IMG/VR virus record: IMGVR_UViG_3300035180_000393 | Coordinates: 1 to 24,868 of that record | Length of the DNA stretch: 24,868 bases | Direction: 5' to 3' (one strand) | Source: a virus | In this document: positions 2,080 to 24,868 of the stretch, in pieces | How positions within the stretch are numbered: the stretch's first letter is position 1 | Layout: every line of letters begins with the position of its first letter | Notes under the pieces: model-generated | Database searches by the model: none | What the model was told of the DNA's origin: nothing | The model's input: the letters and a program-made list of their open reading frames with translations, nothing else | Made by a program: the position numbers and the translations under genes

Positions 2080-5000
2080 TTATACTGTAGCAACCCCAGC
2101 GAAACCGCGTCCAACTGAGGCAGATATTTGGTATATATTTACCGTTACGGCCGCCTGATTTGCTCCGAAGTCTGCAACCTGCATTGACGACGTGTAAGCA
2201 ACCGTCGGCGTAGTGCTGGTTAGTGTGCGTTTGACTGTCGTACCGCTCATAATGTCGATTGAATAGCTCTCAGTTGTTTCGCCAAGCGGAACGTCTGTAT
2301 TATTACTCCACGATCCACCGATACGAGTGCGCCGCGTCCAGTTTATTGTAAGGTTTCCAGAAGCGTCACGACCTCCGCCTATTCCAACTGGTGATAATGG
2401 TTTCAATCCAACTGCCGTATTAGTAAATGTGATAAGTGGCGCCGCTGAAAATAGCTGATTATTTGATACGCCTTTGTAATAACGCGCTAAACCAACTTCA
2501 GTTAACGATGAAGCAAGTCGCTGTATAGTTGAGGTTGACAAGAATACAAATCTTTGCCCTGAAGTATGCCCGCTGATATATTGCTCGGTACCAACTCTAC
2601 CTCGTAATAAGCCGCTGAGAACATAGGTATTTGCCGCCGTCAGTGTTGCGTTTCTGAATTGCAGCACTTCATTGCCGATAACGCATCCGTTTTGCCCGTT
2701 CAGAACGTCAATATACTGCACACTGGCTAATGTTCCGCTGTCAACCACTACCGTGACCGTGTTTATTTCATCAAATACGTTTCCGCCTGTAAAGTTACCT
2801 AAAACACTGGTTGCAGTACCCAATACCGCACCGATAGGGAACGTTTCAACGGCGTTATAGCTGATGTTGTCAGTCGATTTTACCAGCGCACCGCCCGTCC
2901 ACCCTGACGAATATCCATCGGCAGCAGTGTAAAACCCCGCATCGTCGTCTGCATCATTTAACAAAGGAATATCCAGCAACTCTACGTGCGTATTGCCGTC
3001 GGATGATACCGTAGTTACCACAGATACAGACGCAACACTTGCCGCTGCTGTTTGCGTGTAAATGCTTGGATCGTCAGCCACCCCCTCAAAATCTATTACC
3101 CCGCCGAGCTTTTCTGTGCGCTTAGTAATTATCAAGTTATATGATACGCCGTTTGACTTGGTAATCTGCACTACGTCTGTCGGGTCTATATAATCATACT
3201 TGCGTGACGTGGAGAACTTAGTTGTGTTACGCGACGTCCACGCTACATAAAGGTTTACGTCAGCGACTTGTTTTGCTTTCGTGTCGCTCATGGCGATAGG
3301 AAGCTGCAAATCAAGCGTTTGCTGGCTGTTGGTAACTTGCCTGGCCGAGTATTGCGCACCTAATAGGTAATTGTTGCCCGTGTTGTAATAGCCTACGTTA
3401 ACGACTTTCGGCAATTCAAGCTCTTGCACTCGTGTTAAATCTACCACGGCAGGAACACTGCTGTTATTGGAGTCGTGCGCTGATAAATCGTCCTCGCTGA
3501 TAACAATAGGTGTACGTGTTCCGCGCTTGACGAACTTGATAATGTTATCTGACTCAACCGCATCAAAATAGAATACCTTTTGCAACGGCTCAATTGCGCC
3601 TCGTGCGCTTACTTGCGTCCCGACAATATACCCGTCAACAGTATCAGTTAATCCGCTTGCATCAATGCTTGTAACTCCCATTTGAGAGCATAGAGATGTT
3701 ACGATACTGCTTAGTTGTGGAGGTGTGCTACTAATGATATTTGCCGCCAAGAATAGCGCTGTGAAGCTATCGCCAGTACGTAATGACGAGCCGTAAGCAT
3801 ATATATAACTGTTGGCACAATTGAAATACATTGTAACCGACGAAATTGTCGTCGTATTTATTAAAATAGGCGAAGATGAGTTTGTAACATCAACAACGTA
3901 AACATCGTATGATGCATTGCCAAGAATCAGGAAATTGCCTTGCAATACAGATTGAGAACTCGCAAAATACCCAGACAGGTAGCTTTTCTGTACAGGTGAT
4001 AACGGGTTTGAGTTGTCGTATATATAAAGTCCGCCAGACGAGCTTGCATATAGTAACGATCCGCTAAAAACTAGCGATATAGTAGAGATAGGAATTATTA
4101 CTTGCTGTGTCAGTGTCGTTTCGTCATAAACGTAAATACCTATTGTTGACACTACGTATAAATAACCACCGTTACAGTATAGGGCATTGATTTTAGTCGG
4201 GGTAATTGTTACTGTTTTAACAAGCGTTAATGGTGTAGTTGATCCACCGCTTGGTGCTAATGTCCATACTCTAACCTGCCCACCTGCCGCAGCTCCAGCA
4301 GAGTAACAAGCCAGTGAACTAACAGCAACAGTAGTATCAGCGTATGTTGCTGATGGATACGCATATTGCACTGGGCTGGATGGAGTGGAAATATCAATAA
4401 CGCGAATGCCAGCATAATTATCTTCTGTCTGATAAATAAGTGTTCCAGATGGATTTATTGCCGAATAGTTTGGGGTGTAATATCCGTCGCCGAAGTTGGT
4501 ATCAGCTACTAATATCGGCGCAGATGGATTATTTACGTTATAAACCTGCATTGATCCGTATGGTACGCTGCCACTACTTAATTCATGAGGCAATATCAGA
4601 TAATTCCCAACTGCAAATCCGCGTGATTTAGATCCGCCGCCTGATGTCGTTGATTGGGTTGTGAGTGTGGTTGTCAGCGTTCCGTTTTTAATTACCTCAA
4701 CCTCAATATTTGGTATTCTGTTCCCGTAATTTTCAAGCTGCATATTGTTGAATACAGCATACGCCTGGCCACGATACGCTGGAACATTGGCAGAGCCGAG
4801 ATATGACTGCATAGTCGGGTCAGGCATTTGCGTTTCGTTGCCAAGATATACGGTAGGTACAATGCCAGCACCCGCGATAATAGTGCCAGGGTCAGTGGAT
4901 GCGCCGTTGTAAATAAGTTTTCCATCAGCCCATATTCTGCCGATGCCCGTGATGGTGCCGACGCATAATGAAACAGCAAAGCTGGCTGAGTAGGTATAAC

Positions 5001-21499: not shown

Positions 21500-21501
21500 A
21501 T

Positions 21502-21567
21502 ACCCGCAATGGTGCGCATCGACCATTACAGTCCAGCATACCTGACGATATTCTAAGCGGTGCGGGT
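21502..21567 (+). other. Nested inverted repeats downstream of the RHH gene
   Basis: Exact arms ACCCGCA (21502-21508) and TGCGGGT (21561-21567) enclose a second hairpin AATGGT (21508-21513)/ACCATT (21522-21527). The outer arms begin 3 bases after the RHH stop. The RNA could form a closed multi-branch structure in the 3' untranslated region; the DNA could form a cruciform. It does not fold as a tRNA. Function unknown. Confidence 0.45.
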
Positions 21568-21575
21568 TAAAATGC

Positions 21576-21610
21576 AAAAAGCCACGACGGTTAGGCCATG
21601 GCTTCGTTTG
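21576..21610. terminator. Bidirectional intrinsic terminator between convergent operons
   Basis: AAGCCA (21579-21584) pairs with TGGCTT (21599-21604). On the plus strand a T-rich tail (CGTTTGTTT) follows; on the minus strand a run of five T (21580-21576) follows the stem. It can end the plus-strand RHH operon and the minus-strand operon that stops at 21697. About 85 bases between it and that stop (21611-21696) show no gene. Confidence 0.75.
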
Positions 21611-21696
21611 TTTCGGAGTCGGCTAATCTGGCAAATAAGCCAAAACGCCTGATTCTATGCGGACTCGATTTTCAATACGACATTTATAACATTGTT

Positions 21697-22089
21697 TTAT
21701 ATTTTGCGCAAATTATTTTCAAACGCTTTTTTCTTCATAGCGTCCGACACCATTAGCCAGCTAGTCCGCATCAGCAACCCAATGTCACGCTCATAAAGTT
21801 TTTTACGCATCACATGGGGCGGTAAGCGTAGTATATGCCAGCACTTAATCGCTTTCTTGTTCTTTTCTGGAAGTCCGCAGATTATCTTCTCCACCTCCAC
21901 CGCCTCCAGTATATTTATCTCACAATTCGGATCGGAACGCTCAAATACGTCAGCGGATTTATACTTGCTCTCTAACCCTACGCATTTCACTGGCACGGAT
22001 TTACGTACTATTACCCACTGTTCCCAATTTGCGAAAATATCAGCTACTTCTGGCAAAATTACAATGTAATCCGATACGTCAACTTTCAT
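21697..22089 (-). CDS. Putative antitermination protein (Q-like)
   Basis: A 130-residue protein from ATG 22089, chosen over an upstream in-frame start because a perfect AAGGAG site lies 5 bases before it. The C-terminal half resembles sigma region 4/Q-type helix-turn-helix segments: CGLPEKNKKAIKCWHILRLP then PHVMRKKLYERDIGLLMRTS (residues ~72-109). The N-terminal half (ILPEVADIFANWEQW) is not recognised. It is the last gene before the late control region, where lambdoid phages place Q. If correct, it would let RNA polymerase pass terminators in the late operon, including the internal hairpins before the scaffold and tail tube genes. The family match is tentative. It overlaps the Cys-rich gene by 4 bases. 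Confidence 0.55.
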   Translation of the reverse strand: MKVDVSDYIVILPEVADIFANWEQWVIVRKSVPVKCVGLESKYKSADVFERSDPNCEINILEAVEVEKIICGLPEKNKKAIKCWHILRLPPHVMRKKLYERDIGLLMRTSWLMVSDAMKKKAFENNLRKI

Positions 22090-22256
22090 TCTATCTCCTT
22101 GAATTGTGCGCATTTCTTGATTGTCTTGTTGCCCTTGTCGCAATACTGCTTATCGAATAGCGTTTTTAGGTAAGCACAGCCATAGCACGGGATTAGCTCA
22201 CGTTCAAACTTGACGTGGTTTGCTGGGTCACTATACATGAAAGCTGGCAGGGTCAT
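22086..22256 (-). CDS. Small Cys-rich (zinc-binding-like) protein
   Basis: Reads from ATG 22256 to TGA 22088-22086, 56 residues (MTLPAFMYSDPANHVKFERE start). It carries CYGC at 24-27, then C39 and C49: pattern C-x2-C-x11-C-x9-C, which would suit a small zinc ribbon. Both ends overlap neighbours by 4 bases (ATGA), so it is tightly coupled to the rusA remnant upstream and the Q-like gene downstream. I do not recognise the family. A small nucleic-acid-binding protein of the nin-like region is the plausible reading. Confidence 0.78.
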   Translation of the reverse strand: MTLPAFMYSDPANHVKFERELIPCYGCAYLKTLFDKQYCDKGNKTIKKCAQFKEIE

Positions 22257-22336
22257 GGCATAGCTCCGATGGTCACCGTCATTCCGCCGTCTTTGATAGG
22301 CTCGCCGTACTCCGCCTCAATCCGCTTTATATTCAA
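22253..22336 (-). pseudogene. rusA: C-terminal remnant of rusA
   Basis: Right after the homing endonuclease stop, a frame opens with TTG 22336 (NIKRIEAEYGEPIKDGG, then MTVTIGAMP) and ends at TGA 22255-22253, overlapping the next gene's ATG. The segment matches the usual C-terminus of phage RusA proteins (..IKRI.AEYGEP.KGG.. followed by a short beta strand). GGGAG lies upstream so it may still be translated as a 27-residue peptide that couples to the Cys-rich gene. The catalytic Asp residues of RusA lie in the missing middle, so no resolvase activity is expected. Confidence 0.7.
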
Positions 22337-22337
22337 G

Positions 22338-23225
22338 TCACTCCCATCCATCAATCATCATTGATATTTTTTTCTGCAACTCTTTATAAGCCTTGCTATC
22401 TATAACGATAAGTAAAACTTGTGGGTGATATATTCGCATTCTGTTTATTTTCGTTTTGCTTCTATCATCCATCCATCCCTTAACCTCATGATATGCAATG
22501 CTGTTGTTGCATTCAGTAACTCTAAAATCTGGCAAATATGATCTGCACCCCCTTTTTATCGATTCAAACCAAAATGTTTCTGGCTCATGCTCCCATTTCA
22601 ATATTTGTTTTTTTTCCAATAAAAATTGCAAATATCTTGCGTAATTTGCTTCCCATGCAGATCTAAAATAACAACGCTGCCCCCCAACTTCTCTCCACCC
22701 ACACTTCCATGACGCCATAGGTCTTGGATTAACTATATTCCCCCTGTCTGATTTTGTTTTTAGCATTTTCATTGTCCTATCTGAAATTTCATCTTCCGTT
22801 TCTAGCGCGTGACGCCTAAATCCAGAATCGCTCATTTTTTCTTTTGATTCTAAACTGTGCTTTTTACCGAGCATTCCTTTCGGATGTCCATGCTCTTTGA
22901 AATATGCTGATAATTTTTTTGCTTTCAAATCAATTGTTTCTTGACTTGGCCTTATTCCTTTGTCGTGGATAACTCGTTTAATTACTGCCGACTGCTCAGG
23001 GCGCTTTCTTCCAGTAAGCTTTGCAGCGTGTTCAACTTGCTTTTTCTTCCATGCCTCGCTAACACCTCTTGATTTTAGCTTGAGTCTGCTAGATTTATAT
23101 CTAACTTGGTGTTCTAGCATTCCTAATTTTTCTACGCACCACATTTTCCCTTGCTTTGCATAGTTTTCAATAAGAAATGTTGTTTTTTCCTCGTCCCATA
23201 TAGAGCTATATTGATTACACCCCAT
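22338..23225 (-). CDS. PD-(D/E)XK homing endonuclease with NUMOD3 motifs, inserted in rusA
   Basis: A 295-residue protein from ATG 23225 (GGAGG lies 8 bases upstream; a TTG at 23240 is also in frame). Residues ~8-55 form a helix-turn-helix-like start (SSIWDEEKTTFLIENYAKQG). NUMOD3-type repeats follow: KLTGRKRPEQSAVIKRV (~69-85) and MLGKKHSLESKEKMSDS (~118-134). The nuclease core spans ~185-265: RSAWEANYARYL (E192), EPETFWF, YLPDFRV (D233) and HEVKGW (E247, K249), which is the PD-(D/E)XK pattern. The gene is visibly more A+T-rich than its neighbours and separates two rusA pieces. It would cut an uninterrupted rusA allele to spread by homing. Its start overlaps the truncated rusA stop (TGATG). 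Confidence 0.88.
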   Translation of the reverse strand: MGCNQYSSIWDEEKTTFLIENYAKQGKMWCVEKLGMLEHQVRYKSSRLKLKSRGVSEAWKKKQVEHAAKLTGRKRPEQSAVIKRVIHDKGIRPSQETIDLKAKKLSAYFKEHGHPKGMLGKKHSLESKEKMSDSGFRRHALETEDEISDRTMKMLKTKSDRGNIVNPRPMASWKCGWREVGGQRCYFRSAWEANYARYLQFLLEKKQILKWEHEPETFWFESIKRGCRSYLPDFRVTECNNSIAYHEVKGWMDDRSKTKINRMRIYHPQVLLIVIDSKAYKELQKKISMMIDGWE

Positions 23226-23338
23226 CACTCCACCCTCCAAAGCGCATAACCAACGGTTAAAACAGCATGACCTTTTGCAACCATTGTGCGCCAGTATTTG
23301 TTAGCTGATACTGGATAAGGTAATCTAATCGTTATCAC
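23225..23338 (-). pseudogene. rusA: N-terminal remnant of rusA (Holliday junction resolvase)
   Basis: From GTG 23338 (GAGAGG site 5 bases upstream) the frame encodes MITIRLPYPVSANKYWRTMV, then AKGHAVLTV, the characteristic start of RusA: LPYP.SAN.YWR....G. After codon 29 it departs from the family (GYALWRVE) and stops at TGA 23227-23225, which overlaps the homing endonuclease ATG. The start overlaps the Ref-like gene by 4 bases (GTGA), as in an intact operon. About 65 residues with the catalytic aspartates are missing, so the gene is broken by the insertion. Confidence 0.85.
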
Positions 23339-23589
23339 ATTAACCTCTCTATTGTTTCCGCTAGCACTAGCAATTCAGTCTTGTGCATTATATTCCACAT
23401 TGCCTTGCGCCCGTGTATGCCGTTGTGGCTATCTTGATGGCATGATTTGCATAGCGGGATAACAGCAAAGTGGCTTACCCTGCGTCCACCATCTAGTATA
23501 TGATGAGCGTCCGATGTTTCGCCCTCGCCACATACGCCACATGATAGATTTTTAACCCGTTCTATGTGTTTATGTTCCGATTTGGTCAT
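23335..23589 (-). CDS. Ref-like HNH recombination nuclease
   Basis: An 84-residue protein of the Ref family (RecA-dependent nuclease, as P1 Ref). It has a CGVCG pair (C17, C20), an HHI motif (SDAHHILDGGRRVSH, H29-H30), and a PLCKSCHQDSHNGIHG zinc/HNH end (CxxCH) followed by a helix. The order Cys pair-HHI-CxxCH is the beta-beta-alpha-metal nuclease with structural zinc. P1 Ref makes nicks or breaks at RecA-coated D-loops; a role in phage recombination is inferred. It overlaps NinB upstream by 20 bases and the rusA start downstream by 4. It is shorter than P1 Ref, lacking its long N-terminal tail. Confidence 0.88.
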   Translation of the reverse strand: MTKSEHKHIERVKNLSCGVCGEGETSDAHHILDGGRRVSHFAVIPLCKSCHQDSHNGIHGRKAMWNIMHKTELLVLAETIERLM

Positions 23590-23956
23590 TAAACTTTACC
23601 CCATTATTTGCACCAAACGCCGCGATTAACTCAAGCAATTCGCTGAACTCTGATTTTGTCATCTTTGACGTGGACTGACCGCAAACTACAAATCCACCAT
23701 CTAGCCCAGGTACAACTTTTTGCTTTTTAAGTGCCGAGCTGAAAACTGACTTCCATTCTTCTTGACTTAGTTTATTACCGTACCAATCTACCTGACGACT
23801 AATATCTGTTAGCATCGCCCACAATGCCGCGTTTTGGTCTAAATTTCTAGTCGGCTCTGATACTGTGACGATATATCCATCTGGGGCGTCTTTAACTGCT
23901 TGAATAGCCCTGCGCCGCGCTTCGTCATGGACGAGTCGAAATGTCTGTTTACTCAT
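23570..23956 (-). CDS. ninB: NinB recombination protein
   Basis: A ~128-residue protein of the lambda NinB (Orf) family. Conserved marks are RNLDQNAALWAMLTDISRQV (residues ~38-57), WYGNKLSQEEWKSVFSSALK, VVPGLDGGFVVCGQSTSKMT (~80-100) and EFSELLELIAAFGANNGVKF. ATG 23956 (MSKQTFRLVHDEARRRA) aligns with the family start; an upstream ATG at 23968 would add 4 residues. In lambda, Orf binds SSB and single-stranded DNA and supports recombination with the phage's own proteins. The C-terminal tail after GVKF is shorter than lambda's. Its neighbours, a Ref-like nuclease and rusA, form a recombination group like the lambda nin region. Confidence 0.92.
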   Translation of the reverse strand: MSKQTFRLVHDEARRRAIQAVKDAPDGYIVTVSEPTRNLDQNAALWAMLTDISRQVDWYGNKLSQEEWKSVFSSALKKQKVVPGLDGGFVVCGQSTSKMTKSEFSELLELIAAFGANNGVKFNDQIGT

Positions 23957-24311
23957 CGTCTTGCTCATCCTTGCGCTTGTTGTTGTACGCCATGGGATTA
24001 GCAGTCCGTGAATCAGCCGCTTTTATCCACGCCAGCACGTCCTTTTTCTTGACTATTTTTAACGTACTCATGTCCAGCTTGCGCAATCCGTCAATAGATA
24101 ATCCATTGCAGTCGAATATACTGCCCGTTATCACATCAACATATAATCGCTTTCCGTCCAGCACCGAATCGGCATAAACACGGCCTATTTGTGCGTATTG
24201 CACAATCTCCATCCTTCCTATGCTATTTGGTGCGCTGGCCATTAGTCGGATAGCGTTAGCAGTTAGCGCATAGCATTCGGATGAAAGTATCTTTATGTTT
24301 AGTGTAGTCAT
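23949..24311 (-). CDS. Unrecognised protein of the nin-like region
   Basis: A 120-residue protein from ATG 24311, which overlaps the methyltransferase stop (ATGA); a GTG 15 bases upstream is less likely. Nothing in it is recognised. Residues ~1-30 look helical, ~35-80 beta-rich (GRVYADSVLDGKRLYVDVIT), and the C-terminus is charged (NNKRKDEQDDE). It lies between the C5-methyltransferase and NinB and shares stop/start overlaps with both, so it belongs to this operon. Confidence 0.75.
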   Translation of the reverse strand: MTTLNIKILSSECYALTANAIRLMASAPNSIGRMEIVQYAQIGRVYADSVLDGKRLYVDVITGSIFDCNGLSIDGLRKLDMSTLKIVKKKDVLAWIKAADSRTANPMAYNNKRKDEQDDE

Positions 24312-24868
24312 TGTTTTAATCCACACGTTAGTATGTGAGCGATAACATCAACCGTCCAGCCATTGCCAAGCATCTTATATCGCTGCGTGTTGCTGACACA
24401 GTCAGAATATCCGTCTGGTACTGTTTGCAATCTCTCGCACTCTACTGGTGTTAGTTTCCGATAACGGCAATCGTCATACCCTACTAAACCCATTTTCGCG
24501 CCTCCTCCTCCTGCCTCGCCCTTTAGTGTCCTTCCCTTGCCATCTGGGTGATAAATGCGTCCAGCGTCACCATTACCTGAATAAAGCGATCCGACCTGTA
24601 TTAACCCGCTATGCGAAACCACCACATTATCTTTTTGCACAGTTGTTAGTGTATTTGTTTTACCGTCTTGTCTAACCTCTAGACGTTGCTCTGTTAGCCC
24701 TGCGGTTTTAACCTTATGGTCTTGTCGCTTGCCATCAACAATATAACGCCCGCGTATTGCTCCGCATAGTATCTTTGGTGTATGCCCTGCCGCCCGTAAT
24801 GTTGGCGCTTTGCCTGTTTCTGCATATACTCTACTGCTATAGTAATTAACTATCTTCGTATCTGTAGC
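24308..24868 (-). CDS. Cytosine-C5 DNA methyltransferase (C-terminal part; N-terminus outside window)
   Basis: The frame is open from the right edge to TGA 24310-24308, 186 codons. It carries the C-terminal part of a C5-methyltransferase: LTPVECERLQTVPDGYSDCV is motif IX-like, and QRYKMLGNGWTVDVIAHIL is motif X, with 'GN..TV'. The middle (ILCGAIRGRYIVDGKRQDHK, DGKTNTLTTVQKDNVVVS) is the target-recognition region. Internal GTG codons near 24640 are in frame but the reading continues upstream of them. The catalytic PC motif and the AdoMet site lie outside the window. It is expected to protect phage DNA against host restriction. Confidence 0.9.
   Translation of the reverse strand, partial: ATDTKIVNYYSSRVYAETGKAPTLRAAGHTPKILCGAIRGRYIVDGKRQDHKVKTAGLTEQRLEVRQDGKTNTLTTVQKDNVVVSHSGLIQVGSLYSGNGDAGRIYHPDGKGRTLKGEAGGGGAKMGLVGYDDCRYRKLTPVECERLQTVPDGYSDCVSNTQRYKMLGNGWTVDVIAHILTCGLKQ

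Follow-up and report, generated by a model that had tools for sequence, protein, structure and literature searches.

A NUMOD3-DUF1064 nuclease gene lies between remnants of the resolvase gene rusA in a phage genome fragment and adjoins rusA remnants in other phages

Introduction

Homing genes are expected to spare the function of the genes they enter, being located in introns, inteins or intergenic sites. In the phage DNA described here a nuclease gene lies between two pieces of the resolvase gene rusA, and the question is whether the nuclease invaded and destroyed rusA, took the place of the resolvase, or came to be there by chance or artefact. The window, i.e. the whole stretch of DNA that was analysed, is a linear IMG/VR fragment of 24,868 bases (IMGVR_UViG_3300035180_000393). 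An original prediction, made from the letters of the DNA, had read the locus as a rusA gene split by a homing endonuclease, with the catalytic middle lost.

Results

The split rusA gene

The genes of the locus are all on the minus strand and are read in the following order:

23570..23968, minus strand: ninB/orf recombination mediator (Pfam NinB, 2.2e-48), which marks the recombination module
23335..23589, minus strand: 84-aa HNH gene (phrog_1588, DUF968/RecA-dependent nuclease type), the conserved neighbour upstream of the rusA slot
23261..23338, minus strand: N-terminal rusA remnant, codons 1-26 (82-92% DNA identity to sister rusA; RusA N-profile 38 bits)
23225..23260, minus strand: 11 new codons and a TGA at the end of the truncated frame, foreign to rusA (from the sequence and the sister alignment)
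22338..23225, minus strand: 295-aa nuclease with a helical region, NUMOD3 and a DUF1064-type PD-(D/E)XK domain (stop at 22340-22338)
22253..22337, minus strand: C-terminal rusA remnant, codons 98-125 and stop (82-92% sister identity; RusA C-profile 29 bits)

The sisters are 11 relatives, about 90% identical in DNA, that were found by scanning with the window NinB. Eight of them (L083, L084, L085, L086, L088, L089, L090 and L092) have an intact rusA of about 125 aa at the slot, and their full-length proteins match Pfam RusA with E values of about 1e-23 and contain the D-L-D-N...N-D-D residues that are absent from the window. Aligned with these genes, the pieces on the two sides of the nuclease rejoin into one RusA gene, as had been predicted, the similarity reaching to RusA codon 26 and returning at codon 98. 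The split and the absence of the core can thus be read directly from the alignment. As the remnants resemble the sister sequences about as closely as ninB and the HNH gene do (82-92% versus about 90%), they look native to the window lineage, and the decay does not look long-standing.

The truncated frame starts at a GTG (23338) that overlaps the stop of the HNH gene and ends after 37 codons at a TGA (23227-23225). A RusA N-terminus of 29 codons had been proposed; it is present, but codons 1-26 (MITIRLPYPVSANKYWRTMVAKGHAV) are the sole part that aligns to sister RusA, the last 11 codons being new. The insert is a NUMOD3 and PD-(D/E)XK nuclease, and its ATG (23225) has its A in common with the truncated rusA stop (TGATG), both in accordance with the original prediction; a GGAGG ribosome-binding sequence precedes this start, inside 23225..23260. 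A RusA-like C-terminus had been placed just downstream of the nuclease and is indeed found there: at the nuclease stop the homology resumes at codon 98 (DLNIKRIEAEYGEP versus DSQV/IKRIEAEYGEP in the sisters) and extends to the rusA stop near 22253. The TTG of this remnant is, however, separated from the nuclease stop by one base (TGA-C-TTG) and not by two. The loss of the catalytic middle is likewise borne out, but it amounts to 71 codons (27-97) instead of about 65 residues. The missing codons include D78, D80, N81, K84, D88 and D97 (RusA alignment numbering); the catalytic D-x-D-N...D-D residues that characterise RusA (PF05866) do not occur in one open frame of the window, and a PF05866 search of the window record gave no RusA match. 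At the same place there are about 920 bases of new sequence in the window versus 213 bases in the sisters. The Cys-rich 56-aa frame that comes right after the rusA tail (22086-22256, minus strand) has a weak zinc-ribbon match, and the sisters have a different gene there.

Profile searches on the fragments had been suggested as a check, and their outcome was divided. Pfam gave no match to the bare pieces, which are too short, and PHROGs matched the N-terminal piece with E = 0.014 only, but a locally built RusA profile matched both the N-terminal piece (control maximum 8.5 bits) and the C-terminal piece (control maximum 4.1 bits). Because the fragments are too short for Pfam, the split is shown by the sister alignment together with the local profile.

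The remaining three sisters (L081, L082 and L087) have an intact stand-alone DUF1064 gene (phrog_190) in the rusA slot and no rusA remnants (L081:4302-4646; L087:1004-1375; L082 likewise). The slot contents in the clade of the window are therefore RusA, DUF1064 or a NUMOD3-DUF1064 nuclease. The clean occupancy by DUF1064 is a hint that DUF1064 is equivalent to RusA, and the three-way polymorphism is a direct lead on DUF1064 function.

rusA remnants at other loci of the nuclease family

The flanks of the nuclease in the window and in 49 non-redundant homologue loci (50 in total) were searched with RusA profiles derived from 104 proteins of that family, using end-specific N- and C-terminal profiles with matched controls from the same loci; the RusA proteins behind the C-terminal test were independent of the flanks. 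A RusA C-terminus (at least 6 bits) is found at the nuclease stop in 14 of the 50 loci versus 0 of 628 other-frame stops (Fisher p 2e-17), and a RusA N-terminal match (at least 10 bits) upstream of the nuclease in 4 of 50 loci versus 0 of 595 controls. Two further patterns were drawn up once the flanks had been read, and their counts serve as description only: PGxPV upstream of the nuclease (5/50 versus 0/595 controls) and the active-site codons D-x-D-N, in DNA GATNNNGATAAY, shortly upstream of the nuclease ATG (7/50 versus 0/595). In the union of the tests, with the antisense locus L040 included, RusA remnants adjoin the nuclease in 24 of the 50 loci, and the remaining 26 have no recognisable RusA remnant. 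The same pattern is seen in bacterial genomes, namely a betaproteobacterial MAG (L225) and Pseudomonas massiliensis (L226).

In L040 the C-terminal half of RusA is antisense and directly upstream of the nuclease (3827-3943, minus strand); the top-scoring "control" of the whole-profile flank scan turned out to be this very tail. It may reflect either an insertion opposite to the orientation of rusA or a later inversion. In six other loci (L009, L052, L055, L059, L060 and L066) the nuclease carries an in-frame RusA N-terminal leader, so that it seems to be expressed from the rusA start codon.

The ends of the remnants follow a pattern. Those upstream finish at or near D-x-D-N and those downstream start at A-L/N-G or later, so the original insertion site was most likely between these two motifs, as judged from eroded remnants; none of the nuclease loci showed a recent insertion into a rusA gene that is complete apart from it. 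The remnants come from different RusA subfamilies and are scattered over the clades of the nuclease tree, several forks of which are poorly supported. This variety on both sides suggests multiple separate invasions, and the recurrence, which is directly visible in unrelated phages, marks rusA as a probable recurrent landing site rather than the place of one accident. Together with the intact rusA of eight sisters, the 24 loci with remnants point to the fixed, conserved site typical of free-standing homing endonucleases. Upstream of the nuclease, most of the genes that could be named belong to replication, recombination and methylation (DnaB, primase, RecA-dependent nuclease, UvsX-like, DNA methyltransferases).

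The nuclease

In the nuclease homologues (n=44) a helical N-terminal region, variable in length, is followed by a NUMOD3-like stretch (GHPRGMLGKKHS) and a C-terminal catalytic domain, i.e. a modular DNA-binding region of helical modules and a family motif lies upstream of the catalytic part. The motifs RSxWExNY, YLPDF and EVKGWMD of the C-terminal domain are invariant in all 44, and E192, D233, E247 and K249 are invariant across the family; in the window protein the conserved motifs are intact. On the window protein Pfam NUMOD3 scores 19.2 bits (E 0.0012), slightly below its cut-off of 20.4, and Pfam DUF1064 (PF06356) 18.3 bits, under its cut-off of 24.7, which is passed by 22 of 25 homologue records. 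The protein matches phrog_190, named Holliday junction resolvase, at 1.3e-20, as compared with 2.4e-44 for the stand-alone sister gene. These profile matches and the conserved PD...ExK residues place the domain in DUF1064, a family with a general PD-(D/E)XK assignment (PMC1189080), and hhalign of the nuclease profile to DUF1064 gave a moderate value of 66%.

A structure model (pLDDT 88, pTM 0.48) is confident domain by domain. The predicted catalytic domain groups with restriction-like nucleases; its best solved match is TnsA (Z 8.8, 118 residues, 3.4 A), the match to T7 endonuclease I is weak, and a PDB sequence search with the nuclease gave no match. The GC content of the nuclease (37.6% versus 47% for the window) suggests a foreign origin. 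The family is under purifying selection (dN/dS about 0.05 in several pairs), and 50,697 records of cultured phages contain a single partial relative.

Discussion

We consider it probable, on the sequence data described above, that the nuclease belongs to a family of free-standing homing-type endonucleases that repeatedly invade rusA, which then erodes. Its homing nature is supported indirectly, by the recurrence at rusA, the foreign base composition, one antisense insertion and the modular architecture. The enzyme would cut rusA at its most conserved codons, at or just after D-x-D-N, repair would copy the nuclease gene into the cut rusA, and the intact rusA genes of co-infecting phages would provide the route of spread. 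The interrupted gene would be trimmed afterwards, deletion following insertion, and where trimming brings the rusA start near that of the nuclease, expression of the latter would be favoured. In the window, invasion and trimming would have taken out RusA codons 27-97 and left the rusA start and tail as operon leader and trailer; the TGATG overlap would put the nuclease under rusA expression, and RusA activity was presumably lost in this phage.

The strong purifying selection and the resolvase context of the slot also fit a cellular job. The NUMOD3-DUF1064 enzyme could be a junction-cutting recombination nuclease that replaced RusA, swapped in by recombination within rusA, and this we regard as possible though rather unlikely. 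The slot after ninB and the HNH gene must then hold a resolvase, and the nuclease may have invaded rusA and replaced it as well. A resolvase slot is favoured by the rule that a rap or rusA resolvase invariably comes after orf/ninB in lambdoid phages (PMC4118853), and also by the stand-alone DUF1064 gene of the three sisters, which shares with the window nuclease a PHROG family labelled as resolvase; most of the nuclease homologues pass Pfam DUF1064, and the low dN/dS is in line with replacement. However, PHROG names are based on remote homology, the DUF1064 profile match is moderate, and the fold is closest to TnsA, with T7 endonuclease I a weak match. The presence of NUMOD3 and HTH-like modules suggests that the enzyme binds specific sequences, something not required of a resolvase, and simple gene swapping rarely gives boundaries within a gene with remnants on both sides. 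RusA and DUF1064 are rarely found together: DUF1064 occurs in 1 of 25 RusA phages, and intact RusA in 0 of 38 DUF1064 phages and 0 of 50 nuclease phages, counts that have no neutral baseline and are only suggestive. The absence of RusA is weak as proof of replacement, given that 0 of 26 other, more distant NinB phages have RusA and that the records are fragments. The lone RusA phage that has a DUF1064 gene too is L201 (G104:C1:23305-23595), an exception to the apparent exclusion. The search for other resolvases in nuclease phages covered RuvC and NinG: RuvC was not found, and NinG gave two matches below threshold in 50 records, one of these lying in a RusA phage.

Two further explanations of the locus are far less probable. 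An unrelated nuclease may have landed once in rusA, or the contig may be chimeric; phage genomes are mosaic, and the two exact junctions of the window were absent from the other IMG/VR contigs. We think this very improbable: the same association is found in 24 of 50 diverged loci with control rates near zero, and the remnants match the sisters as closely as the neighbouring genes do. Least credible of all is an intron- or intein-like arrangement, or genes in pieces, in which RusA function survives. It has a precedent in mobE, which splits nrdA of phage Aeh1 without abolishing its function (PMC2988022), but the window record lacks 71 codons, those of the catalytic acids among them, and Rfam detected no intron family, i.e. 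no group I/II intron or other structured RNA above noise, in 21500-24868. An intron-borne homing endonuclease is rejected on the same grounds, and a surviving RusA can be discarded for the window, the one exception being that an unsequenced part of the genome contains the missing codons.

It is useful to compare the nuclease with known systems. MobE, which lies in nrdA of phage Aeh1, and the other T-even free-standing homing endonucleases are the nearest precedent (PMC2988022). Like MobE, the window nuclease is encoded by a free-standing, promoter-less cassette inside a conserved phage gene of DNA metabolism, with a start codon overlapping the upstream stop. The catalytic domains differ, being HNH or GIY-YIG in MobE and the T-even enzymes and DUF1064-type PD-(D/E)XK here, and the split nrdA makes a working enzyme whereas the window rusA is without its catalytic core. 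I-Ssp6803I (PD-(D/E)XK) and I-Bth0305I (EDxHD) have restriction-like or Vsr-like cores, as the window nuclease does, and modular DNA-binding parts are common to it and the phage enzymes (PMC3943268); unlike it they are intron-borne, and there is no sequence match. The fold matches include the catalytic domain of I-Bth0305I (Z 5.9, 79 residues, 3.4 A), a Z that is not specific. The DUF1064 phage proteins (PF06356, phrog_190) share the catalytic domain family, but the stand-alone forms that fill the same slot in sisters have no N-terminal modules and left no rusA remnants. TnsA of Tn7 resembles the catalytic domain in fold alone (16% identity), and no transposition genes were seen near the window nuclease. 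We would file the nuclease as a variant of the free-standing homing endonucleases that seems new in its repeated destruction of rusA; in an open-access literature search of limited extent, no paper describing homing into rusA came up.

Across many phages, one nuclease family is recurrently linked with the ruin of one and the same recombination gene, which means that either phages in nature can often do without this resolvase or the invader assumes the job of its victim. The original prediction had concluded that junctions must be resolved in this phage in some other way. This does not follow from the data, because stand-alone phrog_190 members fill the same slot in three sisters, and the DUF1064/phrog_190 domain of the nuclease itself may supply the lost function. 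We tentatively speculate, while regarding it as doubtful, that the nuclease is a self-compensating homing gene that targets the active-site codons of rusA, destroys the gene and resolves junctions with its own DUF1064 domain. If so, invasion and functional replacement would take place in one step, and the persistence of the nuclease under strong purifying selection after the erosion of rusA would be accounted for.

At the contig edge (24308-24868, minus strand) the window also carries the C-terminal part of a C5 cytosine methyltransferase, which has in pieces about 76% DNA identity to methyltransferase genes of Vibrio phage ICP1.
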